Below, in pieces: positions 10,786 through 58,407 of a stretch of DNA of 64,000 bases (position 1 is its first letter; each line of letters starts with the position of its first letter). The position numbers were made by a program, and so were the translations under genes. Source of the stretch: Tachypleus tridentatus. Lineage: Eukaryota > Arthropoda > Merostomata > Xiphosura > Limulidae. The notes below the pieces were generated by a model. It ran no database searches. It was not told the origin of the DNA and worked only from the letters and a program-made list of their open reading frames with translations. The stretch is taken from positions 25,525,217 through 25,589,216 of the forward strand of contig NC_134833.1 in assembly GCF_004210375.1 (NCBI RefSeq), written 5' to 3'.

Positions 10786-11015
10786 ACGTATATTATCATA
10801 TAAATAAGTATATACTTGCAAATGCATTCAAGATAATTTTAAATGGAATGAAGCATTATACTACAAATACTAAAGTTATAACTACGAACGATGTTACGCA
10901 GGGTTAAAAGATTTCCCCTGTCAGCAGTTTGTGTCTAAGAAGGCACAGCACTCGTACAAGGGTAATCTAAAGCTTAAATAGTCATAAAGATTTTGTTTCT
11001 CAACCTTTTTTAAAA
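10786..11015. other. No recognised feature; left flank of the duplication
   Basis: Unique sequence directly left of the duplication boundary, containing 'aagattttgtttctcaacc' and a T-rich run at the junction. No exon or repeat is seen. Confidence 0.5.
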
Positions 11016-11220
11016 CATTGGACCCTGCTGATTATGACCACTTGGTCTATTCATATGCATATTTACAGTATGTTGCTGAGGCTGTTGATGGTTGTACATC
11101 TGGTTTGACTGGCTTCCAGAGTGTTGACTCTGCCCTTGCCCATGCTGGTTCACCAGCTTTCCATGGTGTGAGTTAAGCATCTTACCATTTCTCTGACTTG
11201 ATGGACCTCCAGAAGCACTG
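11016..11220 (-). pseudogene. 3' exon of a Q/H-rich protein gene, truncated at the duplication edge
   Basis: Minus strand, copy of the exon at 30260-30587. The splice acceptor 'gatgttgtag' precedes coding sequence for a Ser/Gln/His/Asn-rich stretch (GKMLNSHHGKLVNQHGQ, then MYNHQQPQQHTVNMHMNRP). The copy ends at 11016, so the last 43 or so codons and the poly-proline C-terminus present in unit 2 are missing. The parent protein is not recognised. Confidence 0.55.
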
Positions 11221-11687
11221 CTACAACATCGAAAACTCTATTCCAGAAGCTATATATGTATTGTACAATCCACACCACATTACTAAACACATGATGTATG
11301 AAAGTTAGAATACGGTAGAGAAAGCAAATAGTCTCCTTCAAATATTTGAATCAGTAATCTAGATACCTGTTTAACTGTAGGATATACGATATTGTACACA
11401 ACCTACTGACCACAACTGCTTTTTTTTTTTAATAGTCTCTGTTGCGTCATCACAAAAAAATAATAACAAGAATTTGGATTTAAAAAAATTTTAAAATATT
11501 GTTGGATTTATCCCAAAATTGCAAACGGACAACACAAGCAGCATACGTCTAAGTAACTCCTTTAAGTGTATATTTGAAACAAAAAACACATGTGTAGCTC
11601 TAAGACATAGCTCACTCATTTTAACATCGAAATGCGACTAGATTTCTGTTACTCTGTTGTTTGTTTGTTTTTTCCTTCATCTGTTTT

Positions 11688-12003
11688 CCCTCACTGAAGT
11701 ACCTGGGAGGTGAACTTTGACAAACAAACTAGTTTCAATAGCCATCTTAACATCGTGATAACTATAGCCACCAAATGAATCAATGCATTGAAAGTTTCAT
11801 CAGAAACTACAGATGAAAAGCGAGGCCTATTTATGCTTTACCAAGATATTGTATACTCCATCCTGCATTATACACTATCGACGATCGTTGCGAGTGTTAT
11901 TTAGCTAAACAAGATTGACATTAAATAGAACATCTCTTTAAGACTGGTCACGGGATATCCTTCACTCTCCTCCCACCAAGCCCCTCTTACACCTCACAAA
12001 CCC
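11688..12003 (+). repeat. Dispersed repeat, unit 1 copy
   Basis: Homologous to 3421-3735 and 31063-31352; see the first copy. Confidence 0.7.
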
Positions 12004-12260
12004 CTTCTTTTAAAACTATTATTGTACTTACTTTATTTGTTTGTTTGTCTTTTACATTTTGTCAGAACACTATTATCCTCTGTCAATTTTTCAATTACTT
12101 GAGAAATTTGGAATAAATATTCAACCTCGTAATATTGGTCCTAAACTGAAAGAGTTTGATAACCACTGTCCCAGAGCAATTTCTAGTTATTAACACTAAA
12201 TTATTCACTTCTCGAGTTTTTCGTGTACTCTTCAAGTAAGTAGGTGGAAGCACTAGTTTA

Positions 12261-12342
12261 ATGGCGTCTTTAAATCTTGGTTCACCGAGGAAAACATTAT
12301 TTCAAAAACAACGTTCAAATAATGAACGAATACAAAATTTTA
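12261..12342 (+). CDS. 90-residue protein gene, exon 1 (unit 1)
   Basis: 27 codons plus one base, from ATG to the consensus donor gtaagt. Confidence 0.7.
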
Positions 12343-14685
12343 GTAAGTGGTCTGTAAGTTATGGAATTATGATAATAGTCGTTAGAATTTAAACATAATT
12401 TCTTCCTAAAATTTGTTATTAAGCAATTGTTTTAAAATCCCTGGCTGTATCTTCGTTTCAATCACCTATCAGTGATTCAATCACCCTGTTCAATGCAATA
12501 CATATAGGTACGACTATAGCAGCACAAAGGAACACTGGCAATTATTATGTGTATTATAATAATAATTATTATTATTCCTTAAATAGAAAGATGATTTTGA
12601 TAAACCTTTATATTAGTGAATAGTTTGTATTGAAATATATAATTCACTAGGCCTTATATTACTTTAGTACTACAACTAGTACTGAGCTGTTATATCAAGA
12701 GGAAATAATTTTATAGTTCTTAACGTATTCCAGCGATATAATTTTTCCATCGCTGGAGTAATATCAGTAGCACTTCTGTAAACACTTTCCAATAATTTGA
12801 CACCCTTTCTTAGTTAAAAAAGAAAAATCAAACCAGAAATTTTACACGTTGGTGAATGAGGCCTAACTGGTGATTTATAGAAAGATAATTAATGTCTTTA
12901 AATAATCCCAAAAAAGTGTATATCATCTGTAGTGCTAGTAACAGAGCTGACTTGAATAAGTGGTTCTTTTCTTCACTATTGGATAGGCTCACATGATATA
13001 AAATGTATAGCCTAAAATTAAATGCATTAACTTTTTTATATACATAATCTATTAATCTAAATAGGTAGCATTTTATAAATTCTCATGCAGAATCAGCAAA
13101 TATGTTCAATGGTCAATTTCAACTGTTTTAAGAGACTAGTATTCAGCCTCTAATCTATAATTGTTACTTTGAGTTCCAGGAAGTTTACAATAATGTGCTT
13201 TGTAGAAGGCTATCAGTGAGCTCAGACCTAAGAATAGTATGAAAAAACAATCATTTTATGTGCAAAGGAGCAGTGATTAAAAGTGACAGAAAAAATATGT
13301 TGTATGCTTTATTTCTCATACAATAGGTCATTTATAAGAGCAAAACAGCAACCTTAATAAAAAACTGCAAATCGTAAACAATTTATAAAATACAGAATCA
13401 GAGTATTTAGCTTTGACTTTTTTTTTATAGTTTGTATTCATATAGGACTGTTGTAATACTGGCTCAGTACAACTTATAAGACAAATTTTAATGTATTTAA
13501 TTATAGGTTTAGAAAGAAATAATGGCCTGAACAACAGAGAAAAGATACAGTTTGAACATGATGTTGAGACTAGTGTGAGAACTATGGAAAGAGGTTTGAT
13601 CCCATGTTTTTATTCATTTAACATTATATTTGAAAACCAATGTACATAAACAAATATCAAGTTATTAAAAAAAAAAGTCATTTGTTTATGCATCTTCAAA
13701 CAGTTGCATTTAAAGATATTTAAATATATATACTAGTAAACAGTATGATCAATCAGTTGTAATAATGAAATATTATTTTAAGAAATAAGTACAGTACCTT
13801 GTTACACAATAAAAATAATTTTGTAGATACAGATGATTAAAATAACTTTAAATACATGATTTTTTAACTTAGTTCTAAGTAAATGTTCATTTAAGTAAAA
13901 CTTTTACTTGAATATCAAAATTATTTGAGGTTATCATGCTTCCTTGTACATGTGTGGTCCAGACATAAATTGTATCTTACAATGAAGACAGGATATTAGA
14001 AATATACATGATAAATACATATTAGTTCATAATGATGGTACAACTATGAAATGTGTAACACATGAACTTGCTAGAGTGTTTCACCTTTCCCTGTGATGAG
14101 GAGGTTCAGTAAAGACAAAAGTTAAGTGCTATCACTGGCACAGATTGAAGAAGCACTTCATATTTTTAAAGGGTGTTAAAATTTAAACATTTTCCAGTAT
14201 TATCGGGGAAAATACTGAGGTGAATACACATAATGCTTCAGTTTTAAAGACAGTCTCTTTTCAAAGGCTGTGGGATTAACAATAAGTATTTGGTTTTAAA
14301 GTCAGAATTTTTTATTATAAGTAGCTTACATTTCTGTGTGGTAAGCATTCATTTTGAAGACAAATAGCAATTTATTGAGGCTTGTCAACCTAGCAAATAT
14401 GTATAATTAATTTTAAAAAGTATGCATGTGGTGTTGGAAGAGGTGAATCTGGTATTGTTTCTTTAATGAATTTCAGGCTTTAGCAACATTATAATTTCTT
14501 ATATGAATATACTATTAAAAAGAAACGCATGGTTCTGAAAAACTTTATCTCTTTTTAGCATGTCATCATCTTTTCTTTCAGAGCAACATGAGCAACGACT
14601 GACAAATTTAAGACAGTTAGCAGATAAACTAAAGGACAATGATTGGAAGTATACACCAGTGGAAAAGCTTCTAGGTCTTCAGTGA
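12261..14685 (+). CDS. Unrecognised 90-residue protein, three exons (unit 1 copy)
   Basis: Exons are 12261-12342, 13507-13593 and 14582-14685. The start ATG opens MASLNLGSPRKTLFQKQR. The first donor is 'gtaagt', the second acceptor 'attatag', the second donor 'gtttga' and the last acceptor 'tctttcag'. Phases agree at both junctions (1 then 1). The total is 273 bases with a TGA stop after a KLLGLQ C-terminus. The middle and C-terminal parts are charged and probably helical or coiled coil (REKIQFEHDVETSVRTME; NLRQLADKLKDNDW). There is no signal peptide or membrane segment, so a cytosolic or nuclear protein is likely. I do not recognise the family. The same three exons, phases and length recur in unit 2 with amino-acid substitutions but no disabling change, which supports a real gene. 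Neighbours are unrelated. Confidence 0.72.
13507..13593 (+). CDS. 90-residue protein gene, exon 2 (unit 1)
   Basis: 87 bases; reads SLERNNGLNNREKIQFEHDV and onward when joined to exon 1. Confidence 0.7.
14582..14685 (+). CDS. 90-residue protein gene, exon 3 with stop (unit 1)
   Basis: A pyrimidine-rich acceptor (tcttttctttcag) is followed by 33 complete codons and TGA, ending WKYTPVEKLLGLQ. Confidence 0.75.
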
Positions 14686-15629
14686 CTGCATCATATTGAT
14701 TAAATGGAAAGACTGGTTTGTTATTTTATTTAAACATATGACAGAGAGAAAAATTCAAATTTGGTTCAATATCACCTTCACATGTACTTTTTTTTTAAAA
14801 ATAAAGTCATTTTTTGTATATTATTATGAAATGTTGTTCATTGGTGAAACTGTCTTAAGTTTAAATATTATTATGCAAAACATTTCAACACATGGACAGA
14901 AAACAAGATTATACATCTTTTTAAACAAATTAAAGATTAGAGCTCGGTAATTAGTGGAACTTGATTAATTACCAGGTCCATTAATTGATTACATTTGTCT
15001 AAACAGTTATTCTCACATGAGTCTACGATACTTGGAATAAACAAAAATAATAATATTTGGAAATAGATTTATTTAGTTGATTATTCTAGGGAATTTTGAC
15101 ACTAATCTATTCAGCTAAATAACCTTAAATTAATAAAAACAGTAAACTGTGAAATTGGCACAAACCTTTCAAAGCCGTGTTTTGAAAGATGAGTGTACCA
15201 TGTAGTTTCTCATCATCTTTATTTGCTTCTACACAGTTCCTTGTGTGAAAACACTTAGTTCAGGTCTGTTAGAGTTTATTGGTATTTGGTTGACCTTTTG
15301 CTCTTGTCTCCCTTGTTTATCAGATCAAATTTTTCCCCTCAGTCTTACCTGCCTGAAGAAATGCAGCAATTTCCTTCTCATGGCAATGTCTACATCCAAA
15401 GCCTGAGAATACTGTGAGAGAGAGAGAGATCGGTCATGTGATCACATTACTGTGAGAGATGGAAAACAGGGTTTTTGTTCATGAATGTTTTTCATCTGAG
15501 CAGAGTGTTACTTGGTTTTTTAGTTGTAGTAGTTTTCTTTGATTTTCTACAAGTTTAGTCCTAACAGAAGTTCAGCTGTAGTGAAGAAAACCTAGAGTTT
15601 TATACTTTCTTCCAATAGAGAGCCAGAGT

Positions 15630-15850
15630 TCATAACTGTCTATTTAGTGTATAAGTCATTAGTTAGGCCACATTTGGAATACTGTATTCAGTCTTGTGCT
15701 TCTTGTCATAGGAAAGACACTAAGTTGTTGAAAAATGTTACTAGCATGATGCCTGTATGTTGTATGAGGAGAGGCTGTAATCTCTCAAAATGTTTTCTCC
15801 TGAAAATAGAAGAATTAAGATAGGGGTCTGACTGAGATGTGTAAGATTGT
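15630..15850 (+). mobile_element. Non-LTR retrotransposon (LINE) ORF2 C-terminal remnant, unit 1
   Basis: Plus-strand translation gives LVRPHLEYCIQSCAS and then a KDTKLLKNVTS-like stretch. This is the conserved post-reverse-transcriptase motif of CR1/Jockey-type LINEs (typically 'LVRPHLEY..Q.W.P...KD...LE.VQ'). It is degraded, with no reverse transcriptase nearby. Confidence 0.65.
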
Positions 15851-15894
15851 AGTTGAATTGGTAATGTTCATGCATCATCTTTTTCCATATAGTT

Positions 15895-16039
15895 ATAATG
15901 TAATGGTCAATCCCACTATTCATTGGTAAAAGAGTTGGTGGTAATGAGCTGCTTCCTTCCCTCCAGTCTTACACTGCAAAATTAGGGATGGCTAGCTCAG
16001 ATAGCTCTTGTGTAACTTTGCACGAAATTCAAAACAAAG
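15895..16039 (+). repeat. SINE family A, 3' half (unit 1)
   Basis: The body from 'ggtcaatcccactattcatt' to 'cacgaaattcaaaacaaag'. The tRNA head is absent. Confidence 0.8.
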
Positions 16040-16554
16040 CAAATCTACTTTTTATTAATAACAAGGTATACTTATTCATGGATACTGACGTGGATGCTTC
16101 ACACAGATTTTTGATAGACAGCTTGTGATGAACTTTAAAATTAGTTAAATGTATGTGATGTTGGATAAGTTATGAGCTTCACATTGTTTTTGAACAACCA
16201 CTTCAAAAAAACAAATGCTACACTTCTAAATAGTGTTGAATAATGCAGTTCAAATTTGTAATTCATTATTCTGTATTTTAAAGATTTCTAAATCGTTAAT
16301 TATTAAAAATTATTACGTAAAAAGAAACTTGTAGTGCTATGATACAGAGGTTATCTACAATAAACAAATCACTTGGAGCTAAAGGATTAGAAGTGTAGGA
16401 CTTGTTACACTATTTTATCAAAACTGATAAAAGGAAATAATCAAACATACAGCAGACCTCCACTACTTGCTACGTTGTTTATTTTGTTTAAACTGAAATC
16501 AGGAGGATATGAAATAATCATATGATACATATTCTTCTATTTTTATCTTCTTAG

Positions 16555-18087
16555 ACTCAAATACAAATTGAGTTGGTGAAGATTATAGCAAATCCACATC
16601 ATACTTTCAACTGGTTCAATCAAATCCCTGATGTTAGTGTTATGAGTCCATGGAGAAACCAACAAGATTGAAAATAATAATAATAACGTTCTTAGTCTCA
16701 TGTTGGTTATCCTCAGTGGCACAGAGGTGTGTTTGTGGACTTACAATGCTAAAAACCAGATTTTGATACCCATGGTAGTGTGACACAGAGGTGTATTTGT
16801 GGACTTACAATGTTAAAATCCAGATTTCGATACCTGTGGTAGTGTATTCTTATCACTTTTATAATCCATTTCTTAGGTATATGTCTTTTTGAAAGTTTTA
16901 ACCTTTTCTTCCTTCTCACTTACCCATATTTCTTTTCCATTTTACATTAAGTGTCCTGTAGACATTTTCACATTATTTTATTTAACCATTTGGTGTATTT
17001 CCACTGATTAAACAATATTCCAACTAATTATATTTTATTACAACCTCAGTCCAAATCTGTGGGTCACGGATTCAAACCCCCGTCACCAAAGGTGCTCGCC
17101 CTTTCAGTCATAGGAGCACTATAATCTAACGGTCAATCCCACTATTCGTTGATGGAATGGTAACCTAAGAGATAGTGTTGATTATCTGCTTTCTCGCTAG
17201 TCTATCATTGCTAAGTTAAGAACGACTAGCGCATGTAGCCCTCTAACTTTGCATAAAATTCAAACCTAACCTCTTTCAATTAATTTATTTAAATTGTAAA
17301 TAATAAAAAACTTAATAATAAACATCCTTTTCTTATTCCTTCTTGTGCCCAAGTTCCCCACTGGTACAGCGGTAAGTCTACAGACTTACAATGCTAAAAT
17401 CATAGGTTCAATTTCCTTTGGTTAACTCAGCAGATCGCCCAATGTGGCTTTGCTATAAGAAAACAAACTTGAACTCAAAGTTTATCAGTTTGTCTTCCCC
17501 CTGCCTTTACTGTCATTCTTTGTATCCCTGTAGCTTTTCTGTATCATCCTAAGTTAGTCTGATAAAATTCATTTCTCTATGCCCATGATAGGCACAGCGC
17601 AGATGGTCCTCTTTGTAGCATTGTGCTAAACTACAAACAAGCAAAGTTGGTCGAAAATTGTCGCGGCGACAAAAAAGCTTATTGATAACTTCATAATTAA
17701 AAATGTTTGTCTATTTTAGTATAACAAAGTCATATCGGGCTATCTGCTGAAGTTCACCGAGGGAGTTAAAAATAAATTATTATGGTTAGTCTTAGTAATA
17801 ATATTATTAAGTTTATCACATAGTTTATTGGTTAATCGTAGTAACGGAAGATGTATGGTATGCAAATACTACTGGTACAATTGTTATATAATAAACAAAT
17901 AATCCTATATTTCTATTTGGAATATGGCAAATGGGATCAAGATGAAGTGCTAATTTAATCCTAACAGTTATTTTTATAACAGGATCCAGAATCCGTGGAA
18001 AAAGTCCATCAGTTGTATGAGCTGATTGTATCCTATATCACTTTTTGGGACTATTTTATGCAGAGCAGAGATACTGCTCGACTTTAG
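16555..18087 (+). CDS. 3' end of an unrecognised gene, two candidate exons (unit 1)
   Basis: Exon 16555-16632 follows a strong acceptor (ttttatcttcttag) and encodes 26 residues beginning TQIQIELVKIIANPHH; its proposed donor is gttagt. Exon 17983-18087 follows 'atttttataacag' and encodes 34 residues, starting DPESVEKVHQLYELIVSYI and ending in RDTARL and TAG. Both are phase 0 and join in frame. Composition is protein-like. Upstream exons were not found between the 90-residue gene and this point, so the gene may be partial. The product is not recognised. In unit 2 the last exon has a premature stop. Confidence 0.4.
16716..16842 (+). repeat. 64-bp minisatellite, two copies (unit 1)
   Basis: Two direct copies of a monomer 'tgtgacacagaggtgtgttt...gatacccgtggtag', which resembles the head of a family B SINE. 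Unit 2 has six copies at the same place. Confidence 0.88.
17060..17262 (+). repeat. SINE family A, 5'-truncated (unit 1)
   Basis: The B box 'cggattcaaacccccgtcac', then body and tail in order. Confidence 0.75.
17352..17464 (+). repeat. SINE family B (unit 1)
   Basis: 'ccactggtacagcggtaagtc', 'taggttcaatttcc' and 'cagatcgcccaatgtggctt', ending in an A-rich tail. Confidence 0.8.
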
Positions 18088-18366
18088 TAATTTAATGTTT
18101 TAGTTTATCAGCTACAAAAATGATTCTGGTAGTGAAAACAGATTATCTGTTAGATTTGTTGTAATTGCTGAGAGAGTTTGGACATATAAACCAGTCACTC
18201 AGAAATACAATTAATTGTTTTTATTATTCAAATACATCGTTTGACTTTAATCGCTTCACATAATCAAATAACCAACACTGACAGTTTTCTACCATTAGAC
18301 GTTCAGCCCTAATTATCAACATTTTCTTACCTCTTGTCAATAGTGTTTTTTTTGTTCATCGTAACT

Positions 18367-18515
18367 CTAAATGTTGTGTATATCATTCCACTTGAGTAAA
18401 TCAGTTCTTGTTCTTCCAATTGTAGATCCACGAATCTCTCTCTACAGCGAAGATCATGTAACTCTGTTCTAGGTTCATCTCGAATCTTAAGATACCATAA
18501 ATTTTCATTGTCTAT
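18367..18515 (-). pseudogene. C-terminal exon fragment of an unrecognised minus-strand gene, frameshifted (unit 1)
   Basis: The minus strand reads IDNENLWYLKIRDEPRTELH and onward through RERFVDLQLEEQELIY. Compared with unit 2 (40918-41067), one base is missing after the codon for Y, so the shared TAG stop at 18367-18369 is out of frame here. The unit 2 version reads to NDIHDI and stops. No convincing splice acceptor is seen upstream, so exon or retrocopy cannot be decided. It lies convergent with the plus-strand exons ending at 18087. Confidence 0.35.
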
Positions 18516-18635
18516 GTACCTTATGTGTTCTTTTTCTTTATAACATTTATACAAGAAAGTAAAATAGACTGTTTTTGTATCAAATTACTTTAATTAGTCT
18601 ATACTATTCTAATTTACATACATTTAAATCTATAT

Positions 18636-18720
18636 TTTTTGCCCCCTCGTGCCACAGCAGAATTTTGCGGACTCGCACTACTAGAAATCTGGTGTACCTT
18701 TGTACTTAATTTCAAAAAAA
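18636..18720 (+). repeat. tRNA-derived SINE fragment (unit 1)
   Basis: 'gccccctcgtgccacagcag', then 'cgcactactagaaatctggt', ending in a long A run. Confidence 0.55.
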
Positions 18721-18923
18721 AAAAAAAAAAATTATATATATATATAACTATGAGCTGACAAATTAAACTAATAAGTTGACTTATTTCATAGTCCGGTTTA
18801 AACACTAACGTAATTTAAAAAAAAAAAAACATCAAAAATAAAATAGTACTGAAAAAATTTGTTGAAATAATTAGATTATAGAATCTTATTTGATGTTAAA
18901 CACAAAGAAACGCAATAGGTTTG

Positions 18924-19185
18924 TTTGCCTGTTTTTGAATTTTGCGCAAAGCTACACGAGAGTTATCCGAGTTAGCCGTCCCTGGTGTAGTGGAGAAAGA
19001 CAGCTAGTCAACACCACCTATCGCTAACTCTAGGGCTACTCTTTTACCAACGAATAGTGGGATTGAACGAATCATAATAACGTTCTCACGGCTCAAAAGG
19101 CGAGCATGTTTGGTGTGACGTGGATTCGAACCCGCGATATTCAGATTTTAAAGTGAATGCCCTAATCATCCAGTCTTACCGGGAC
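18924..19185 (-). repeat. SINE family A (unit 1)
   Basis: A reverse copy from 'tgtttttgaattttgcgcaa' to the head 'taatcatccagtcttaccgg'. Confidence 0.82.
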
Positions 19186-19192
19186 ACAATGG

Positions 19193-19288
19193 GCTATTTG
19201 CGTTTTGCTCTGCCTCCCACTGGTATCGAAACTCGAATTTTGTCGTTATAAGCTTTCAGCCTTATCGCTGAGCCACGAGGGGTTGGGA
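19193..19288 (-). repeat. SINE family B-like, reverse (unit 1)
   Basis: The minus strand reads 'cccctcgtggctcagcgata', then 'cgagtttcgatacc' and a body that includes 'caaaacgcaaatagccca'. Confidence 0.65.
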
Positions 19289-19567
19289 GGAAAATAATGT
19301 AGTACCTACTTATAACATTAAGAAGTTTATTATCGCTTTTTCTAATGGTATTCGTAAATATAAAATTTTCCAAGTTAATAAGTGTTTGACCGAACCATTT
19401 GATTGAATATAAGCAAAAATAGTGTTTCACTCTAACTTTGTGTAAAGATGTAACTGTTTAATAGATTAATAGTTTTTGCTACCGTGTTTAAAACTTGATC
19501 GTAGTATTTGTAACAGTTAGTGCGTACAAATCATTAATTGTTAATGTTCTGTTTAAAAGTCTTCAAT

Positions 19568-19604
19568 CTGAAGACGAAAGGCGGAAGACTTTCGAAACGT
19601 CGTC
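19568..19604 (+). ncRNA. Hammerhead-ribozyme-like motif (unit 1)
   Basis: The motif CTGAAGA is followed by a hairpin (gaaag...ctttc), GAAAC, a three-base loop and GTC. This is the order of a minimal hammerhead core as found in Penelope-like retroelements. The flanks show no convincing stem I, and one base between CTGAAGA and the hairpin is unpaired, so activity is doubtful. The same motif is at 42114-42150. Confidence 0.4.
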
Positions 19605-19974
19605 CTCTACACTTGTGTTTCCACAATAGGCATTTGCCGTCCATTCTCAAATTTTGATCATGAACACTTTGCCTAAACAATCATTCAAAGAATACCTAAT
19701 TTAATAATAATTTGCTGGTGATTTATTAGGAGACAAATTTTCAAAATTACTTTTCTAGTTTATTTTAATGGTCAAATGAAGGTTACAAAATTTGATACAA
19801 AGCAAGTGTTCAACTTTTTTCCTTTTTACGTACGTGCATTAAGCACGTCTAATTTAGAGAAGCTTTTCTTATATTTTTGACGTTTCAATAAAATATTATA
19901 ATTGTATTTCCTGTAATTTCCAGATGTATAATTTTAAAATTATTACTTCGTATTAGACAGAAGCAAAAGATCAC

Positions 19975-20085
19975 CCGCCGGGACAACAGTAAGTCTATTG
20001 ATTTATTAAAATCAGGGACTCGATTCCCTTTGGTGGACACAGCAGATAACCCGATGTGATTTTGTTATAGGAAAACACACACTGA
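19975..20085 (+). repeat. SINE family B (unit 1)
   Basis: 'gccgggacaacagtaagtct', 'gggactcgattccc' and 'cagataacccgatgtgattt'. Confidence 0.8.
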
Positions 20086-20126
20086 AGCAATAGAATATTA
20101 AACATCTCTTGTCCATTTGAAAAGCC

Positions 20127-20250
20127 CGCCGCTAGTACAGCGGTATGTCTACGGATTTGCAACGCTAAAATCAGGCGTTCGATTCCCCTCGGTAGGCTCA
20201 TCAGATAGCCCAGTGTGGCTCTGCTATAAGCAAAAAAAAAAACACACCCA
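20127..20250 (+). repeat. SINE family B (unit 1)
   Basis: 'gccgctagtacagcggtatg', 'gcgttcgattcccctcgg' and the body, with an A-rich 'aaaacacaccca' tail. Confidence 0.88.
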
Positions 20251-20837
20251 CAACCATTTGAAAAAAAAAACATACAGAAATTCAACCCATGAGATTTCAT
20301 TCGACACGAAGACAAACAAGCAAATTGTTTTCTAAGATACATTTATTTAGTATTTCTTTTGAAGCTATTGACTGCTTTTTCTTGCTTTTCTTTCAGTATA
20401 GTTTTACTAATGTTACTCGATATTTGTACCATAAAAACACAATCCGCATATCTTATTTAAGTCTTTGGCAATTCCTAATTTCCTTAAGACAAAATAAAAA
20501 TGATGTCGCACACTTGTTGACAGTGGGATGAGGCGATTTTTCTTTTTTGGAAAATAGAAAGTTAAACGTATTTTGTAGTATCGTACTGATTCATTTCTAG
20601 GATAAAACCTTTTTTTCTTCAAATATCGCATTCCTCTTGACATGTAGATTAAGGGAAGTTTCGAGTTTTGGTGCCATTATTTGGAATAACATTGACAACA
20701 GTTTGTTTACAAAAAGATACTTTTGCACGTGACTGAGCGGTGGCTCTGGAAGTAGAAACAGCGTAAGTCTGTGATAAATTTCAAACAATCGTTGAAGTAC
20801 CATAGTAAAAGTTCGTGAAGATTTTGTTGCGTTGAAG

Positions 20838-21175
20838 ATGTTTTCGCTTGCATCACTGTTAATCTTAGGATTTGTAGTGCTAAGTAGCTCTCAGTATCAA
20901 CCTACATGGAAGTCTATAGACAGCCGACCTTTACCGTACTGGTATGATGATAGCAAAGTGGGAATATTCATCCATTGGGGGGTGTTTTCTGTACCCAGTT
21001 TTGGTTCAGAATGGTTCTGGGAAAAATGGCAAAAAAGAAAATTGAAACCTTTTGTGGATTTTATGGATTGGAACTATAAACCAAATTTCACTTATGCAGC
21101 GTTTGCTCCAAGTTTTACTTGCGAATTCTATGATCCAGAGCAATGGGCTGAGATTTTTAATGCATCAGGAGCGAG
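20838..21175 (+). CDS. FUCA: Fucosidase exon 1, intact frame (unit 1)
   Basis: Start ATG at 20838; donor gtaaga at 21176. The poly-G run in the IHWG codons has six G, keeping frame, unlike unit 2. Confidence 0.88.
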
Positions 21176-22350
21176 GTAAGACACTTTAGTTTTTTTATAG
21201 ATGTCCAATTAGTGTATCTTTGCTTTGATAATTGAAATTGCTATAATGCTAGATATTTAGAGAGTTTATTCAGGATATAAAGCTTACAGTCAAAGTTAAT
21301 TATTCATCATCGAGGAATTGCCTGTTGCTCTAAAAAAACAAACTAGTGAACATCATTACATCTACACAATAATTTAGAAGTATTTTTATTATATTATTTT
21401 GACAAAAAATAGTTTTATGGCATATACGTATAATCTCAATAGACGTCTCTAACCAGGACCACTAGCACAGAGATGTACAGTTCTTGTTTTATCAAGTGTC
21501 ATAACTCAAGTTTTACAAATGATCAACTTATTTGTAAAATATTACACAAACATTCCCAATCTTGTATTTAGTGCTGACACAGAACTTTGAGTATTTTACT
21601 GATAAGTAATATGACTTTACACTCACTGTACACTCCTGAATGTTATTAATCAAATCTTTGAGTGTGTAAAAAATAATTATTTTAATCTTATCATATGCAT
21701 ATCATCAGTAAAGCAACCTTTAAGTATTTTTATTAACTTTTTAATCAATGTTTTTTATTTTACCTGTTCATATATGAAGCATCTCTGAAAAATGAGAGAG
21801 ACAGGCCACAAATAAGCACTGAGTTTGTTTTTTTTAGTGGATTTTTTTACTTATATCAAATGCAGAATTTCAGTTTTAGTTAAAGAGTTTACAGATAACA
21901 TATTGGATCAGAGTTGAAGGATATCTTCGAGTAGCACTAGTATTAGGTTAATAATAGATTACTTGGCTACTGTATCAGCACTTTTGTTTATTTTAACAAG
22001 TATTTATAAACCATTGTCACTATTAGTAATAGTGATTCATTTTGTACTTTTGTTATTTTAAATATCATATATTAAAGTGTTATTCCTGCTATTTTTAGAT
22101 GTATGCTATAAGTAATTAAATATATTTTCAAATCTTACCAGTGGGTATATTAACTGAGTAGTGAACCTCGTGTGAAGAGTTTACATTTCCCATACAAATT
22201 AAATGTTTAAATTTTGTTTCAATATTTGTGTCAAGCCTACAGTTGCAACTTACATTACTTTAGTTTTATATGCAGTTCTAATAAACTCACACAGTCAATC
22301 TTAATGTTGGAAAGATGAACTCAGTTGTTTATTCCCTTAATTTCCATTAG

Positions 22351-22521
22351 TTGTGGAGGAAACATTCTGATTAACGTTGGTCCCACTCATGATGGTAGAA
22401 TCATACCAATATTTGAAGAAAGACTTCGAAACCTTGGAAAATGGTTAAACGTAAATGGCGAAGCTGTTTATGAAAGTCGACCTTGGACCTATCAAAATGA
22501 TACAGTTACACCAAATATATG
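22351..22521 (+). CDS. FUCA: Fucosidase exon 7 (unit 1)
   Basis: Acceptor ttccattag; donor gtaagt. The protein sequence is identical to unit 2 exon 7. Confidence 0.88.
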
Positions 22522-23448
22522 GTAAGTAAAATATTTGATAAAATCTTGTTACTCATCAAGCAAAGCTGGGTAGACTATTCCTACATGAAATAGCTGGCAG
22601 AGCCACTATATCATGTGCCAAGCTGACATAATGTTATTGATATATAGAAGGTCTGTCAGGATGATACTCTCTGTACTGTATTGCCAAGTAAAATGTCTAA
22701 CAGAGTCATTCTTTTTGTATTGTTTTCACAGGTTGATTAGCATCTAATGAAACAATTTGAATGTTTCTTTTATTTTTCCACTCTGTGAATTATCATCATT
22801 TCAATTCTTCCCTTTCATTTTGTTGTGTTATTTACAGAATTTCAAAATATACCATAAAATCAGACATCATTATAATCATACCTGAAACAGTATGGAAATT
22901 CTAGAAGAAAAACCTTTTACTGCATTTCCTTTTTCAGAAATAAACTCATAAAGATTATCAGTTCAGTTGTTTTTAAAACATTTTAAATTATTTTATAGAG
23001 GTCTAATTTCAATTATCCTAAAAACTTTATTATAGAAGAAAACATTTCTTATGTTCTTTAAATTTTAGCTGCTAAACAAAACGTTATTGGACATTCATGG
23101 TCATAAAGGTGCATGTATAAACAAGAGGACTTCTTTTCTCTCCAGTAGTTCTGGAAAAAAATAACTAAAGAAACAGGAATGTCGTCATTCCCTCTTGAAA
23201 AACACAAAATTTCTGGCTTGTGTGCTTATTGTGCATCATAATAATTCTATGCTTTTATAGACCTATAAATTTTAGAGAAATGTTTCTTACTTTGTAACTT
23301 TCACATCATTTACGTTTTGATACATGTAGATAGCCATTTTTCAGTGTCTATGCTTGTTATGAGTATGATGACAAAAAAATGGCTTTCATTATATGTTTTT
23401 AATGTTTAATCCTTATAGATTGTTTTTTCTGCTTGTGTTTTTGTCTAG

Positions 23449-23707
23449 GTACACAAAAGGAAGGAAGAATACTATTGTTCCTACTGTGTATGCATTTATT
23501 TTGAATTGGCCAAAGAACAACCAGCTTTATCTAGGAGCACCAATTTTGAAAAGCACTTCCAAAATCTCAGTACTTGGTGTGAAAGATATTCTGTACTTTA
23601 AAAAGGCTGCAACAGGAGGTGTATTGATATATTTTCCACTGTTGACTCCAGATGTCCTTCCATGTCAATGGGCCTGGGTGTTAAAGATGGAAGGCGTAGT
23701 GAACTAG
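23449..23707 (+). CDS. FUCA: Fucosidase exon 8 with stop (unit 1)
   Basis: Acceptor ttgtctag. It ends GVVN-TAG, two residues shorter than unit 2 because of a single substitution. Confidence 0.87.
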
Positions 23708-26434
23708 CAATGATAGTAAAGTAGATTTGTGTGAAAATGGTAAACAAATAATTAGTGTTAAATGAAAGATAAATTACACAATCATTACCATAAAAATCTG
23801 ATTATTAAATAGCTTAAAGAAACTTGATAATAACTATAACAAAGTTACTTAATCTTGTTCACACCATAAACGATACTCATAAAAGCTGAAGCTATAAGTA
23901 GCACCTAGACCAACTCCTGTGTCTGTTGTATCCCAAATAGACATAATTCTGAATTCTGATTGGCATATTTTAATATACTAGCAGAAGCAGACTAAAACAG
24001 TTCACTGGTAAATTTCCTAAAGTAGGAATGAATAAATAAAAAATATGCAATCAACCCAATGTCTCAGATCATAGCATGTATCCAATATGATAGTCTGGTG
24101 GGTCATTTACAATTGTATTGTTATTTCCAAAAAAAACAAATTAGATTTGTTTTTTTTAAGCAAAAGGAAACTGCCTGCAATCCAATGCTGATGTAAATGT
24201 TTGTTTGTTTCTCGATGCAATGGGTATATCTAACATTCAAATTTGCTTAGTAGCTGCAAGGAACTTTCTGTTTGGAATGACACAGTTCCTTGTCATTTTA
24301 CTGAGTGCAAAGGTCTGCTACCAAATTGGCTGCTTTTTGACAATTGTCATTTCTGTAAGATGTATCAAAGGAGAGGTATTCATTTCAAATCAATTTATTC
24401 AACGTGGTGTAATAAAACCATGCATGTATGTAATACAAACATAAAAGCAAATATGTTCTTAAACCAACCAACTACATGTAACAGAAGAACCTTTTGTTTT
24501 GTGAAACTCCTTTTTTTCAAAGTAAGTTCTCAAACTGACTGTTCAGCATTTGTAGTTGCTGTTATATTGATACCAATATGAAATTTTAAGAGTTGCAAAA
24601 CGTTTTTTTTGTAATACAATCTCAAAGAAGCTTTTTTTTTTTAAGGATTAACCATTCAGAAAATACAAAACATGGCAGTCATTTCACTACTGTAAAGCAC
24701 ATAACTGAGAATAGAAAGAAGATAAGGAAACTTATATAAAAACAAGAATGTGAATTTTTATCATAACTTTCAAATTAACATTTATTCACATCATCAGTAA
24801 TTGGTTTACTTCAAAATGCAGACCAAATTTGTGTACCAAATATGTATTTTTATACATATTTTAAAATCAGACCTATAAATGATGTTGATTTCTTTATGTA
24901 GTGTTGTATATGTCTTCCAGTTATTTTTGTTCTTGTTTTAACACAAGTATTTTAATAATTTCTAATTTTATTAATCTGGTATGTCAATTTCACCATGTAG
25001 GCAGACTATCTGACAGTTTTTGTAGTGTTATGTGCATGACTTTGAGGATGCTAGTACTCTATATGAACTATGGTCAGATTCCACAGTTCAGTCATACAAG
25101 TTACTGGTGAGTGCTTTGAACAAGTTTCCTTCCTTCTAACCCATGAGTTCGTAATTAGGGACAGTTGTGTGCAGATAACTCTCCATATAACCTTTGTGCA
25201 ATAATTCTGAAAGAAACTGTAGATACTTGCACTACACAATGGTGCTGTTTCACCAATTTGAAAAATTCATGACTTGTTTAATTGGTATAATCAACACTTG
25301 TTCCATTTTTAACTTAGTGCTTGGATGGAACTGATACTTTGTTTCACTCTAATTTTTTTTAATTCAGTAATTTTAACTGTGAGGTTATTCCTATCACTTA
25401 ACTAATGTCTGTGTGCCTAGTATAACTGCTTTATGAACATCCTTTATCTTACTGATATAGTGACCCTGTTTAACCAGTCGATAACTGTCCATACAGGATC
25501 CTGGTTAATAGATGCACAGTTTGTAACTCTGTACATGTATTTACCACTCAGTATAAATAGCGATTTTTGAGTATTTCTATAAAATTACATACTTTTTGTG
25601 AAGACATGCACTCAAAAACGAAAAGTAACTCATAACATCAACAACTGTTATAAAGTAATTTCAATTACCTTAATTTTTATACAAGTAAGGCATCTCATGA
25701 TTTATCTGATTTGTGACAAATATTTGGTTGTTGTCTAACATCATAGGTAATTTAACAATATTGTTGCTATTAATTATGATAATCTAAAAATTTGTAAAAT
25801 ATCACAACCTTTTTGAAAATTCCACATCTAAACTTTTAATCTCTTTGGAAATTTGAAAAAAGTAATACTAAACTGCTTCCATGTGTTGACTACCACAAGT
25901 TTACCTCTCATTTAAGCTCTTATTATATTTAATTAATATTAGCTGCATATGGTATAATAATACATCCTTTGTTAAATTTCATTTAGTTTTTTCTGTGTAC
26001 TTTTATCATATTTACAATTGTTGTAAGTTCCTTTTCTAAGTCATATTATTATTAAACTTTCTTAAATCTCATTGCATTTGATTTTTCAGCTTTTACGGAA
26101 AAGTTAAAAAGTCGTATTAGTTGTGTTAAACACAACTTGTAGTATGGTTAATACATATTTTTTCATTACAAAAAATGTGGTTGTATTTCAAATAATGTAT
26201 CAATATCTTAGCTATATAATATCTTTTATTTTCATAAACATTAGTTTTTGGTTGTATTATGGTGATTATCCACTCCTAAACAGTAATGTATGTACAATTT
26301 TACCTTGAATCTTAGTCTCTGCTGAAGCTACACTACTGGAGCCAGTTCATAGGTTTATCATTGGTCAAGATGCTTCAAGTAAGGATTGTGGAAACTTTCT
26401 TACACATCTGCAACAGTTCTCAAAGTTATAATCA
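23708..26434. other. Fucosidase 3' flank, unit 1; no further gene seen
   Basis: Probable 3' UTR and intergenic sequence, closely matched at 57073-60002. Two overlapping open stretches (24205-24581) are conserved between units but have no recognisable domain and no frame-specific conservation visible by eye. Bases 25320-25740 are absent from unit 2. Confidence 0.5.
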
Positions 26435-28330
26435 GTGATGTTGAGAAAACCCACTTGTAGAGAAATATACATGTAAAAACGGCTCGTTTGGGTTAAGAAA
26501 ATATTTTACGTAGAGAAGCAAACAACATTTCGACCTTCTTCGGTCATTGTCAGGTTCACAAAGGAAGAAAGTTTGTGTGTTGTGTGTCAGTGTAGTTTTT
26601 ATACAGTATAGACCTTAGTTTTGTGCCTGGTTTTTGAATAAATTTAGTATTAACTGGAATGTCATATTTTGTTACTAGTTTTTGCCAAATGTTGGTTATT
26701 TTTCTGCTGATGTTGGGAATATATGGTATGCAGCAGTATATGGTTTTGTGATTTTTTTGATTCGTGAGATATATTTACTTTTGTTGGTTGATTTTGCTTT
26801 CTGTCTAGGTGTGTGCATATAATGTCTTCTAGGGTTTGTGGAGGAAACTTATTTATGTTGATAAAGTATTGTTTTATTTTGTCAAATTCGTTAATTTTAT
26901 CTGGTGAGCATAGTTTTATGGCTGTGTTTATTTGGTTTCTTAGTATGTTGAGTTTTTGTTTTGTTTCATGTGCTGAGTCGTAAGGAATGTATAGTCTGTT
27001 ATGGGTGATTTTTCGGTGGATTTCTATTTTAAATTGTGTGTCGGTTCTTGTAATTTTGAGGTTAAGAAATGATATTTGATTGCTTTCTTCCTTTCACATG
27101 TGAAGTTAATGTTGGGATGTATAGAGTTAATGCGATTGAAAAAATTGTGTGTTCTGTAGATGTGAATCCCGCTACCATGTCATCTATATATCTGTACCAG
27201 TATAGTGGTAGATGCAATGCTGTGTTAATTGCTTGTGTTTCAACTTGTGTCATAAAAATATTGGCTAGAACTGGTGTTACTGGGTTGCCCATGCTTAGAC
27301 CATTTGTTTGTATATAGTTGTGGTTGTTGAACATGAAGTTTGTCTTTTTCGTGGTGAATTCTATGAGGGTTACTGGGAATGTCAATTGATAGGTTAGGGT
27401 CACAGATATAGAGTTCTAAGGCTATCTTGCAGGCTACAGTTGTTGAAACTTCTGTAAAGAGGGATATAACATTGAAACTGGCCATTAAGGCTTTATGATT
27501 AAGTTGATTTAGATTAGACTTGAAATTAAAAAGAGTCTTTGATGAATGACGTGGCTGACGTTACATATTTGGAGAATGCCCATGCTATGTATTTACCAAG
27601 ATTGTAATTAAACGATTCATATGTGGACATTATTGGTCGTAATGGACAATCTGGTTTATGAGAGTTGGGGGATGCCATATATTTGTGGTGTGTTTTACTT
27701 TGGTAGGAATAAAGTGTTTGTGAAATTGTGTTGGCTTTTTTCATTTTTAGTAGTATTTTGTTCAGTTGCATTTCGTGTGTCTGTTAGATTTGTGTGTATT
27801 GGTTTAAATTTGTTCGTGTCTGAGAGGATGTCCTTCATTTTTTGGATGTATTCATTCGTGTTCATTATGATTATAGCATTACCTTTTATCTGCTTTTAGA
27901 ATTTTTATGTTTTTATCTTGTGTTAGGTTTTTAATGGAATTAATGTCTCTTTTTGTAAGATTGTTTTTTAGTTTTCTGTTTTGTGAAATTGTTTTGATGG
28001 TTTTGTGAGAAAATTCTTTGAAAAAATCATTTAAGATATTGTTTTTAGGTGTTTCTGGAAAATATAAATTTTTAATTTTTACTGGGAAGTTTGGCTGTTG
28101 GATGTCAAAATTATCTAAGTTGTCTTCTTTCTGTTGGTTGTTTTATTGTTTTTTTTTCCATAGAAAGTGTCACAAGTCTCCTGGCTAGATCTTCTAAACA
28201 TGTTTTGATTTCTAAGGTTGGAATGTACCTGGGTAATATTGCGAAGTTGAGTCCTTTGTTAAGTAGATGTATCTTGTCTGTGTTTAATTGTTGGTCGGAT
28301 CTGTTAACAGGCTGCAACACAGCATAATAC
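26435..28330 (-). mobile_element. Penelope-like retroelement, decayed (unit 1)
   Basis: Read on the minus strand, the N-terminal segment LLNKGLNFAILPRYIPTLE (about 28260) comes first. SKTHHKYMASPNSHKP and PLRPIMSTYESFNYNLGKYI (about 27590-27700) follow, then the reverse transcriptase motifs GLSMGNPVTPVLANIFM (about 27240-27300) and YWYRYIDDMVAGF (about 27160-27200). A thumb region and a characteristic 3' tail end near 26435. Frame breaks are numerous. No GIY-YIG endonuclease domain is seen between the thumb region and the tail. Presence at the same place in both units dates its insertion before the duplication. Confidence 0.8.
26519..26556 (-). ncRNA. Hammerhead-like motif in Penelope-like 3' region (unit 1)
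   Basis: The minus strand reads CTGACAA, a hairpin (gacc-gaagaa-ggtc), then GAAATG. This matches the layout of hammerhead cores in Penelope-like elements, but the conserved CTGANGA is changed at the G, so it is probably inactive. Confidence 0.4.
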
Positions 28331-30259
28331 ACAAACTTTGAAAGCAAGAGATAGAAATTATTGATACTCTTCAAATGAAACACTTTTGGATACCCTGCAG
28401 AAAGTACATATAGTTTCACTCCCAGTTACTGATTTCACTCAGAAATGATTTAGGACAAAGATTGTAAGAATGTGTTTGTTAACACATTTTGTTTGTTAAT
28501 AGTCATGGTTAAAATGTAATTTTCATACACTTGATCTGTATTCATTGAACATAAAGGAACTTTTTTAACAACTTAGCTCAACCTATGACAAAAGTTAAGC
28601 CAAGTTCAACTTGTTTTGTGTGGAGACAAATGTATGTAATATTCTGAGAAAAACTGAATGATAAAAGTCATAGCTGAAGACCTGAAAAGCATTAATGGGA
28701 AAACAAATGAAAGTAAAGATTTGGTGTTACATCTGTAAAGCAGGGCCTTTCCTTCTAATAAGAATTCTCCAACTACTTAAAGTTCACTTTTTTTTCATCT
28801 TTGCTTTTTATGGTAGGCAAATAATGCTGTTCATATAGACAGAACAGCCATTATTTTAAAATATTAATCTCATTAATTGATAAACTAAATATGTGAACAG
28901 TATTTAAATATAGCGTTATTCTATTGATACTTCATTTGAAAAAAAAAAAAGGCAATTTTTTATGGCAACACACAAAATAAATTTGGTATAAGGATTAGAA
29001 ACTTCAGGATTCAAGCATAGCCAGACCTGAAGGTTACCAACCAGTGGACTGGAATCTTCTAATCACTAATCATTTGAGCTCTTTTTCAATCTGTACTAAT
29101 TGTAGCATGATTAGTTTTAAATACTTCAAAGTATTGTATGGTGGTTAGCATGTTAAGCACACAAGAGCAAATCACATGCATAAATACATAAATAGAGCAG
29201 AATTTTAATTATCACATGAATAATGTGACAGGATTACAATTTGGTCCTAATCATGACACAGAATATAACACATGTTATGGACCCTTCATTACTGCTATAG
29301 TCCACATATTGCATCATAATGAGCAATTTTGTTTTTGCTTGCCTTAACATTTGGTGTAAAGAAGTTTAGAAACTAAATATTACATTTTTTTTGGTCAGAT
29401 ATATAGGAAACCTTATCAATAGCCAGTTGGATAAAGTAATCACTACTGATATTACTTTTAAGAATCCCATTGTGATGGGAAACTTGATGCCTAAATGGTT
29501 AAGTTTACTTCCTACACTAATCAACTTGGTTCTAGTTGTCAATCTGTGTTGTTCAAAATAGGAAAGTTGCAGGGTAGAATTTATTAGTAATGGCACCATT
29601 GAAACTACTTTACTGAAGACAAGGGTACTCAATAATTTAACAGATTTGTATCCTAATTTAAAAAATTGCTTTATTTTGCCATCTTCTGTAGTAAAAAACA
29701 CGTTTTCTTGTTTCATCACTTTTAAAAGCATAGTTTTCAAACATAAAATGTAGATAATCCACACTGTTTACTGCCAAAAATACACCACCTGATACTTTTG
29801 CAAGCTACATGTAATTACTTGCAGAAATAACAACAGTTCAAAGCCTAACACCATCAGAACCTCTAGAAGAAGAGTCATCTTCCAAAAGAATACAAGCTTT
29901 GATGTTAGTGGTTTTCTCTGTTATCATGTGAACATTCACACAATAAAGAAAACAGCTAGAAATAACAATATCCATCAAAAATAAATATAAGTTATTTAGC
30001 AATAAGAAGTAACTTTTATACTTATGAAAACCATAAAAGTGAAAAATAACAATGTACAGCTCATACTGAATTAGTACATTTTGAGATAACCTATTAATGA
30101 AATTTTTTATAACTTATATAAAACAGTACAAGAACAGATTAGAATAGAAAGGCTTTACAGATGATACATTTTACTTCACAAATTCAGCCATGAAGAGTGG
30201 AGGTTGACAAAGCAGAACAATAGCAAGAGTCAACAGATGATACAATGTTCTTCCTAATT
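28331..30259. other. Intergenic or 3' UTR of the minus-strand Q/H-rich gene
   Basis: Closely matched at 61881-63835. No exon is recognised. An open minus-strand stretch at 29366-29764 is shortened by frame changes in unit 2, which argues against coding. This region would contain the 3' UTR of the gene ending at 30260. Confidence 0.45.
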
Positions 30260-30587
30260 TCAGTTACGAGGAGGTGGTGGTGGTGGAGATTGGAACATTC
30301 CATTCATTGCTGATGAAGCTCTTTGCATCTGGAGGCCCGGATATTCCCCATACATGTTGGGCATCATCACTCCAGACATTCACATTGGACCTTGCTGATT
30401 ATGACCACTTGGTCTATTCATATGCATATTTACAGTATGTTGCTGAGGCTGTTGATGGTTGTACATCTGGTTTGACTGGTTTCCAGAGTGTTGACGATGC
30501 TCTTGCCCATGCTGGTTCACCAGCTTTCCATGGTGTGAGTTAAGCATCTTACCATTTCTCTGACTTGATGGACCTCCAGAAGCACTG
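30260..30587 (-). CDS. 3'-terminal exon of a Q/H/P-rich protein gene (unit 2 junction)
   Basis: Minus strand. After the acceptor 'cgatgttgtag' the frame reads SASGGPSSQRNGKMLNSHHG, a Gln/His/Asn-rich segment (MYNHQQPQQHTVNMHMNRP), then GHNQQGPM and an in-frame TGA at about 30385-30387. The same frame continues for 42 codons, through MSGVMMPNMYGEYPGLQMQR and SPPPPPPRN, to TGA at 30260-30262. Composition suggests a low-complexity tail of a nuclear or RNA-associated protein, but I do not recognise the family. Either the first TGA is the true end or it is a nonsense change. Upstream exons were not identified. The first TGA codon is at the left edge of unit 2. Confidence 0.55.
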
Positions 30588-32081
30588 CTACAACATCGAA
30601 AACTCTATTCCAGAAGCTATATATGTATTGTACAATCCACACCACATTACAAAACACATAATGGATGAAAATTAGAATATGGTAGAGAAAGCAAATAGTC
30701 TCCTTCAAATATTTGAATCAGTAATCTAGATACCTGTTTAACTGTAGGATATACGATATTGTACACAACCTACTGACCACAACTGCTTTTTTTTTTTAAC
30801 TAAATTATAGTCTGTTGCTTCATCACAAAAAAATAATAACAAGAATTTGGATTAAAAATAAGATTAAAAAATATTGTTGGATTTATCCCTAAAATTGCAA
30901 ACAGACAACACAAGCAGCATACGTCTAAGTAACTCCTTTAAGTGCATATTTGAAACAAAAAACACATGTGTAGCTACAAGGCATAGCTCACGTATTTTAA
31001 CACCGAAATAGAACTAGATTTCTGTTACTCTGTTGTTTGTTTTTCCCGTCATCTGTTTTCCGTCACTGAAGTACCTGGGAGGTGAACTTTGACAAACAAA
31101 CTAGTTTCAATAGCCACCTTAACATCGTGATAACTATAACCACCAAATGAATCAATGCATTGAAAGTTTCAGCTGAAAAGCGAGGCCTATTTATGCTTTA
31201 CCAAGATATTGTATACTCCATCCTGCATTATACACCACCATCGTTACGAGTGTTATTTAGCTGAACAAGATTGACATTATAAAGAACATCTCTTTAAGAC
31301 TGGTCACGGGATATCGTTTACTCTCTTCCCACCAAGCCCTCTTAGACCTCATAAACCACAGACAAAGTTTATTCTCTTCTTTTAGTAATTAACCTAATGC
31401 CATCCTACTTTGGAATAGAATGCTGAAAAACAGAAAACTCAGATCGGTCACGTGTTCACGTCATCGTGAGAGAGAAAAACGGAGTTGTCATTCAGGCACT
31501 TTTTTCTTCTGATGGTACAATATATAGTGTATCCTTCTTAAAATCTGTTTGTGAACAAAGAACAGATTTCCTTTTGTAATTCGTTTCAGATTTTACCGCC
31601 AAAAATTTCCCTAACTTGGAATGAAAGACAAAAAGAAATGCAGCCAGTTAAGAATGTCATTTTTCAACTCTATAACTATTCTTGTCTGACGAAAAGTATG
31701 GCTTTACTACCACTCATATAGCGACACATAACAGCAAAGGACTAAAGTATGATGCATTTGTTATCAACGAGACATGACCCGTAAATTCTCGTGTTCATAA
31801 TTAAACAAACCATCTACAAGGCCAGTCTCGATCTTTTTGTGTAATTCTACATTTTTACATTTTATGTTGTCGTATTTTGAAGCCATAGAATTATTTTGAA
31901 ATGAATGTTATGGTAAAACTATTATTGTACTTGCTTTATTTGTTTGTTTTTTCTTACTTTTTGTAAGAACACTATTATCCTCTGTCAATTTTTCAATTAC
32001 TTGAGAAATTTGGAATAAATATTCAACCTCGCAATATGGGTTCTAAACTAAAAGAGTTTGATAACCACTGTCCTAGAGCTA
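30588..32081. other. Intergenic, with the dispersed repeat
   Basis: Contains the dispersed repeat copy at 31063-31352. A block at about 31370-31914 is absent from unit 1; it includes 'gatcggtcacgtgttcacg', which resembles sequence at 15428 and 37409. No exon was recognised. Confidence 0.5.
31063..31352 (+). repeat. Dispersed repeat, unit 2 copy
   Basis: Homologous to 3421-3735 and 11688-12003. Confidence 0.7.
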
Positions 32082-33562
32082 TACTCTTCAAAAAAAGAAA
32101 CGCATAAGGCAAAATATAAGACAAATTGTTAACAAGTTTATTCCGGGTAGTTCTGTATGGCATGTGTGAAACTTTGCTCATTCACTGCTGAACATCCAAA
32201 GTCTGCAAAGGCGAAGTCCACGCTCACTAGGTGAAGTTTAACGTCAATAACGAGTATGCCCCCCGTGAGCATCAATAACTGCTTGGCATCTCCTGCCCAT
32301 GGAAGAGATGAGATGACGAATCACATCCTGTGGAATGGCTGTCCACTCAGCCTGCAAAGCTGCTGCAAGCTGAGGTAGAGTCTGCGGTTGAGGTTGTCGC
32401 AGACGTCGGTACTACTCGTACCAAAAATGTTCGATGGGGTTTAAATCTAGTGAACTGGAGGGCCAGGGAAGAACGTTGATGTTGTGGTGTCTCAAGAAGA
32501 CAGTGGTGAGTCGGGCTGTGTGAGGACGGGCGTTGTCATGTTGAAAAACGTCGTTGACGTTCACCATGGTGGGTTGCACATGGGGCCTGAAAATCTCGTC
32601 GACGTATCGTTGAGCCGTAACATTCCCTCGAATGTGCAAAAGGTCTGTTCTAGCATTGTAGGCGATGGCAGCCCACATCATGACGCTGCCATCACCAAAT
32701 CTGTCAACATCCTGCACACAGTTTGCTGCAAAACGTTCACCTCGGCGACGGTAAACATGGGTCCTTCCATCCTGCCTACGAAGCATAAAACGTGATTCAT
32801 CGCTGAACCAAACATGCCTCCATCGTCGATGAGGCCATACCCGATGTGCCCGAGTCCACTGCAGCCGTGCTTGACAATGTTACTGGGTGAGGATGACGCC
32901 TCTGACTGGACATCGAGGTCGGATTCCTGCATCTCGTAGACGGTTCCGTACGGTGTGATCGGAAATCCCACGCAGCCCTGGTATGGTTGAGGCAGTAGAC
33001 GTCGCAGTGGTGGTTCTATCCCGAATGTGACGTAACCGGATGTTGCGATCTTGTGCGGGCGTGGTCACACGAGGTCTGCCAGATCGTGGACGGTCACGAG
33101 TTGATCCATGTTGTTGGTGACGATTCCATAGCCTTGTGATGGCGCTTGGGTGGACATTCACAGCTCTGGCAACATCTGATCGAGATTCGCCTGCTTCCAA
33201 GCGACCAATGGCGTTGTTGCGTTGTGCTTCAGTTAGTCTTGGCGTAACTGTATTGCGTGTCGGTGACTTAACACTGAGCTATGGAAACCGAGAACCCGTC
33301 ACTTTTATAGGGATTTTGCACATGTGGCACTTGCAGAACATGCAGATCTCTCAAACAAATTTATTGGACACTCATGCGTTTTGGCGAAAAATCCGATGTT
33401 TTCCTCCGTTTTCAAAGTGCACAACTTTTATTGTCATTTTGGTCTGACAATCAGTGCCTTAACACGTGTAACATCTCATACTCTGAGCTTGTAACGTTAT
33501 TACATATATTTCTCTTTAAAATAACAAAAATATCCCTTTTGCGTTTCTTGTTTTGAAGAGTA
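32082..33562 (-). mobile_element. Tc1-like transposon, 1481 bp, unit 2 only
   Basis: Terminal inverted repeats 'tactcttcaaaaaaagaaac' and the complement of 'gtttcttgttttgaagagta' bound the element, with TA on both sides. The matching site in unit 1 (near 12173) is empty. The transposase lies on the minus strand (about 33240 to 32255): an N-terminal helix-turn-helix region (GESRSDVARAVNVHPSAITR), then VWFSDESRF, QHDNARPHTA and DLNPIEHFW. The last Asp-to-Glu spacing is 34 residues, so it is a DD34E Tc1-type enzyme. Two in-frame stops, near 32877 and just after IEHFWYE at about 32410, make it inactive. Confidence 0.92.
32255..33240 (-). pseudogene. Tc1-like transposase, two in-frame stops
   Basis: Frame is preserved over about 330 codons, interrupted only by TAA after the VILTQ codons and TAG after IEHFWYE. 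The start ATG was not found; the frame is readable from RLTEAQRNNAIGRLEAGES. An insertion so little decayed is consistent with its absence from unit 1. Confidence 0.85.
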
Positions 33563-33644
33563 TATTTCTAGTTTTAACACTAAATTATTCACTTTTCGGG
33601 TTTTTATTGTACTCTTCAAGTACGTAGGTGGTAGCACTAGTTTA

Positions 33645-33726
33645 ATGGCGTCTTTAAATCTTGGTTCACCGAGGAAAACATTATTTCAAAAACAACGTTC
33701 AAATTGTGAACGAATACAAAATTTTA
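33645..33726 (+). CDS. 90-residue protein gene, exon 1 (unit 2)
   Basis: ATG start; weaker donor gtaatt. Confidence 0.67.
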
Positions 33727-37850: not shown

Positions 37851-37877
37851 TTCATGCATCATCTTTTTCCATATTGT

Positions 37878-40915: not shown

Positions 40916-40917
40916 CT

Positions 40918-58372: not shown

Positions 58373-58407
<35 letters not shown>

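Follow-up and report, generated by a model that had tools for sequence, protein, structure and literature searches.

A stretch of 64,000 nucleotides from the horseshoe crab Tachypleus tridentatus (C9:25525217-25589216, hereafter the window) carries in two places a set of three short exons that join into one small reading frame, which raises the questions of what this gene encodes, how it came to be duplicated and how many copies of it the genome holds. An initial annotation had described a conserved small three-exon gene, duplicated, from an unrecognised family. The gene and its duplication are upheld here and the family turns out to be a known one: matches to the Pfam family ANAPC16 and to human APC16 rule out an unknown family, and the horseshoe crab gene is a real but ordinary new member of the APC16 family. 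A short multi-exon gene, when read by eye, is easily mistaken for an unknown one, and the result has the modest weight of a full APC16 gene model for a chelicerate. As for the known range of the family, in a 2011 survey the two jawed-vertebrate representatives were the only ones with APC16 (PMC3195147), and “multicellular” eukaryotes are given as its range in an excerpt of a further paper (PMC3372440). A literature search for ANAPC16 in arthropods found no paper, a result that says little.

Gene model and family assignment

The first window copy (copy A) lies on the plus strand. Exon 1 (12261..12342), which begins with the ATG and encodes a PRKTLF motif, was delimited by the spliced frame, the alignment with human APC16 and the comparison between copies; exon 2 (13507..13593) by the spliced frame and the Pfam scores of exon combinations; and exon 3 (14582..14685), which encodes the conserved C-terminus DWKYTPVEKLLGL and ends in the stop codon, by the spliced frame, the APC16 alignment and Pfam. 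As initially annotated, the three exons, which are 82, 87 and 104 bases long, are joined in frame to give 273 bases from ATG to TGA that encode 90 residues; both introns begin with GT and end with AG (from the coordinates, 1164 bases for intron 1 and 988 for intron 2, against 941 and 1812 in copy B). Eight codons before the ATG there is an in-frame stop, with no ATG in between, and a poly(A)-signal-like AATAAA site lies on the same strand at 14800..14805, 114 bases past the stop codon. To call the splice sites good was generous: donor 2 is a weak GTTTGA in all three copies (A, B and a third copy, C, outside the window), and donor 1, GTAAGT in copies A and C, is GTAATT in copy B.

The protein-profile search that the initial annotation had suggested as a check gave a match above the cut-off. 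The 90-residue product, which had been fixed beforehand in that annotation, matches ANAPC16 (PF17256; curated cut-off 25 bits) with an E value of 2.1e-7 and 31.7 bits over residues 6-89 and profile positions 2-79 of 80, and the products of copies B and C match the same positions with E values of 1.1e-7 (32.6 bits) and 1.8e-7 (31.9 bits). The proposed splicing improves the match, since the score rises from 21.9 bits for exon 3 alone to 25.8 for exons 2 and 3 and 31.7 for the whole product. Exons 1 and 2 alone have no Pfam match at an E value of 1, and the first junction therefore rests on the splice signals, the structure shared between copies and about 6 bits of score. Among solved structures, human APC16 (PDB chain 4ui9_E) matches query residues 5-89 (E 5.8e-5) and chain 8tar_H matches residues 43-89 without a gap (E 2.9e-4), so that the exon 2/3 junction is spanned without a gap; the region of the TPR-binding helix thus resembles both solved APC16 chains (8tar_H over residues 43-89). 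The product is also small, as ANAPC16 proteins are (90 residues here, 110 in human).

That unrelated open stretches were joined by chance might be suggested by the shortness of the exons and the AT-rich DNA (33% G+C), but a product fixed beforehand matches the family at 2.1e-7 and the other two copies repeat the match, and we regard such an accident as extremely improbable. Weak matches to the Pfam families SAS4, FUSC-like, PIN_2 and OSK, all below their cut-offs, were set aside, as were those to a ribosomal protein and two SufD chains in the PDB (E 0.25-0.4). From these comparisons we assign the gene, with a probability of roughly 95%, to horseshoe crab APC16 (ANAPC16), the second window copy being the likely product of a tandem duplication and the third a chimera of copies A and B.

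The tandem duplication and its second copy

Self-comparison of the window divides most of it into a duplication unit A (11015..30591), with a stretch of about 209 bases at both of its ends, and a unit B (30382..64000), which ends at an assembly gap of 500 N. Matching pieces of the two units are 89-98% identical and the tandem block measures about 19-20 kb; unit B is longer because of insertions and because unit A has no counterpart of ~45120-55460. The ~209 bases are common to both unit ends and to the A/B junction and lie within a minus-strand open frame of 74-75 codons with many Q, N and G residues (pieces at 11015-11224, 30382-30591 and 63909-64000, and at C9:26698900-26699400), which is probably part of a coding exon. 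The second window copy would have arisen by tandem duplication of the 19-20 kb block, probably through unequal crossing-over between two of the ~209-base repeats at the block ends, a mechanism that fits their presence at the unit ends and at the junction. The duplication that carries APC16 is in itself ordinary. An alpha-L-fucosidase gene was duplicated along with it, with exons at 20796-22462 in unit A (first-exon frame 20796..21179, plus strand, found by family search) and at 43900-55900 in unit B. In unit A the family search matches no profile parts other than 10-109 and 306-345; in unit B the first exon matches in two pieces, and parts 109-146, 186-236 and 306-345 were matched as well. Since unit A lacks the counterpart of ~45120-55460, its alpha-L-fucosidase gene looks internally deleted.

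Several repeated or mobile sequences were observed in and around the units. A 64-base unit is repeated about six times at 38716-39101 in unit B and about twice in unit A (16716-16845). The unit B stretch missing from A contains an open frame of 233 residues (51012-51713) with no Pfam match over the cut-off, which we take to be similar to a transposase-derived zinc-finger protein. Reverse-transcriptase-like fragments lie on the minus strand at 26662-27093 and 60545-60955; the second matches RVT_1 (E 4.4e-10), the first resembles its tail by eye, and both presumably belong to a Penelope-like element. Directly after the last base of the window come the 500-N gap and then a 29-base tandem satellite that extends to at least window coordinate 92989. 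Among the matches listed, several tandem satellite arrays also occur beyond the left end of the window (coordinates of about -27300 to -2880) and at C9:26746270-26750363, and one array whose step is about 41 bases recurs in the left flank of copy C.

Copy B, located by comparison with copy A, has its exons on the plus strand at 33645..33726 (followed by the GTAATT donor), 34668..34754 and 36567..36670, with the same lengths of 82, 87 and 104 bases, and a poly(A)-signal-like AATAAA site at 36784..36789 (plus strand), 113 bases past the stop codon. Its product of 90 residues is intact and differs from that of copy A by N21C, S28N, E48K and V51L, all in the exon 1-2 part, with an identical exon 3 protein; the 40 codons upstream of its ATG hold neither an in-frame stop nor an ATG. 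About 80 bases upstream of that ATG ends a Tc1-like transposon (32080..33564, minus strand), recognised by a DDE_3 match and by 14-base inverted repeats with TA starting both ends. Its frame is broken by a stop (two adjoining frames), and it is absent from the matching place of copies A and C. The claim that the structure recurs at 33645-36670 with substitutions only is therefore true of the exons and not of the introns, which have indels, nor of the sequence upstream of the ATG with its insertion, and the copy is “duplicated intact” in its reading frame, with the Tc1-like insertion just upstream and a changed donor 1.

Whether both window copies still make APC16 was weighed on their divergence. 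Coding changes number five non-synonymous and two synonymous between A and B, one and two between A and C, and four and four between B and C. The comparison of non-synonymous and synonymous change that the initial annotation had recommended was carried out for the window copies, where five non-synonymous changes among seven fit neutrality (P = 0.43) in a test that is underpowered. Coding divergence between A and B is 2.6% against about 4.5% in the introns, that is, 7 coding changes where 12.2 would be expected (P = 0.08). Two readings of copy B are compatible with parts of this record. Both copies may be real paralogues that make APC16, with B diverging in its N-terminal half, a tentative reading whose chance we put a little short of even: the frame of B is open, its four changes spare exon 3, and it scores as well against the family profile as A does (32.6 against 31.7 bits), yet a transposon lies close to its ATG, its first donor is altered, its ratio of changes cannot be distinguished from a neutral one and the coding divergence is not significantly below that of the introns. 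Copy B may instead be a decaying, unexpressed duplicate whose frame is still open, to which we likewise give somewhat under an even chance; the upstream insertion, the donor change and the near-neutral proportions of the A-B changes point this way, while the lack of any stop, frameshift or loss of GT/AG despite the intron difference of about 4.5% speaks against it.

A third copy on the same contig

The genome searched comprises 2.17 Gb in 205 contigs. Coagulin, the Pfam family of the horseshoe crab clotting protein, has 19 matches in it, and in one exon all 48 aligned residues are identical to those of coagulogen in PDB 1AOC, from Tachypleus tridentatus, which points to a horseshoe crab and probably to Tachypleus; a COX1 sequence was also located. 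A protein search gave nine matches, namely the three exons at each of three loci, all on contig C9 (13 candidates scored), and the ANAPC16 family search gave three, all of them exon 3 of copies A, B and C, with a best score of 20.1 bits that is below the cut-off because the exons were scored singly. Neither search revealed intronless retrocopies of APC16 elsewhere or a copy outside one region of contig C9. These searches placed APC16 in one region of one contig, in an animal group for which whole-genome duplications are reported (PMC7815833).

Copy C (C9:26727114-26729516, minus strand), found by the genome protein search, lies inverted at 1.19 Mb from the window copies and forms a single unit; its protein differs from that of copy A by one change, N21S. 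When identities were taken in bins of 400 bases of A, the eight bins beginning 10800 to 13600 are 98.2-100% identical between C and A (98.8-100% in the seven beginning 10800 to 13200) against 93.4-97.3% between C and B. A mixed picture follows in the bins that begin 14000 to 15200, with C nearer to A in two, nearer to B in one and one tie. From A 15600 onwards, three of the last four bins put C closer to B (100 vs 97.2, 99.2 vs 94.8 and 100 vs 93.5%, the last over just 46 columns), and the bin at 16000 departs from this (98.2% to B, 98.8% to A). Outside the binned region, C runs along with the left flank of A and with unit B up to its right end. Given the A-like 5' bins and left flank together with the B-like later bins and right end of unit B, copy C is, by these identities, a one-unit chimera, A-like upstream and mostly B-like downstream.

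Such a chimera could be a later product of unequal crossing-over; alternatively, the assembly may have kept the other haplotype. We lean towards the view that copy C represents the other haplotype, with one unit and not two, which the assembler placed inverted on the same contig. The near-identity of C and A (98.8-100%) in the seven 5' bins argues for this, as do 619 bases around exon 1 that match A at 100% after rounding, the 500-N gap that ends unit B, and the 242 bases that adjoin the shared stretch at copy C, whose single genome match is at that place only. The extent of the inverted duplication was sampled with two searched probes, at 25.45 and 25.70 Mb; the former recurs twice at 99% near 26.18 Mb, which supports a second haplotype, but both lie off the mirrored place and on the plus strand, and the latter has a single full-length match, itself. 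A probe from the C side is a dispersed repeat with at least 40 matches (1658 candidates) and was uninformative. Also against a retained haplotype, parts of unit B and of the left flank share just 93.7-96.2% identity with C, and the same picture would result from a genuine inverted segmental duplication of recent origin. It is a further and rather doubtful step that APC16 copy number varies among horseshoe crabs, between haplotypes that carry two diverged copies and one-copy A/B-chimeric ones, which would arise by unequal crossing-over inside the gene or close to it. If true, the dose or the sequence of this APC/C subunit would differ from animal to animal.

Comparison with known APC16 systems

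The function expected of the horseshoe crab protein is modelled on work on the human complex (sections of PMC6289045, PMC11473103 and PMC5717348). The visible part of human APC16 is described in one of these sections as a single extended helix of 40 residues on the TPR subunits APC3B, APC7A and APC7B (PMC11473103). The small coiled-coil protein suggested in the initial annotation is not supported; the product is an APC16. Recruitment of APC7 into the anaphase-promoting complex of human cells requires APC16, and cells that lack it have no major mitotic defect, with a complex that is less active in vitro, according to a passage of PMC6289045. By analogy, the C-terminal helix of the horseshoe crab protein (about residues 43-89) would lie along the outer ridges of the TPR subunits APC3 and APC7 and would help to keep APC7 in the complex, supporting its ubiquitylation activity, a role suggested by family membership.

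Human APC16 (PDB 4ui9, chain E) is the closest point of reference. Like the horseshoe crab product, it has a PRK.LF motif near its N-terminus (encoded here in exon 1), a C-terminal helix that aligns without gaps over query residues 43-89, and a C-terminal ending of the form (D/E)W(K/R)(F/Y)xP(I/V)E(K/Q)LLG. It differs in length (110 against 90 residues), since 26 human residues precede the part that aligns and five follow it, and the alignment has gaps between query residues ~25 and 42. EMB-1 of Caenorhabditis elegans is the APC16 of another invertebrate (Shakes et al. 2011, as cited in a passage of PMC12632867), and an APC16 in a chelicerate is therefore no surprise. A counterpart in yeast, Apc9 of S. 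cerevisiae, is described in part of PMC11473103 as structurally similar to human APC16 in that it places a single short helix on APC3B, whereas it is more than twice the size and has no clear sequence similarity to APC16.
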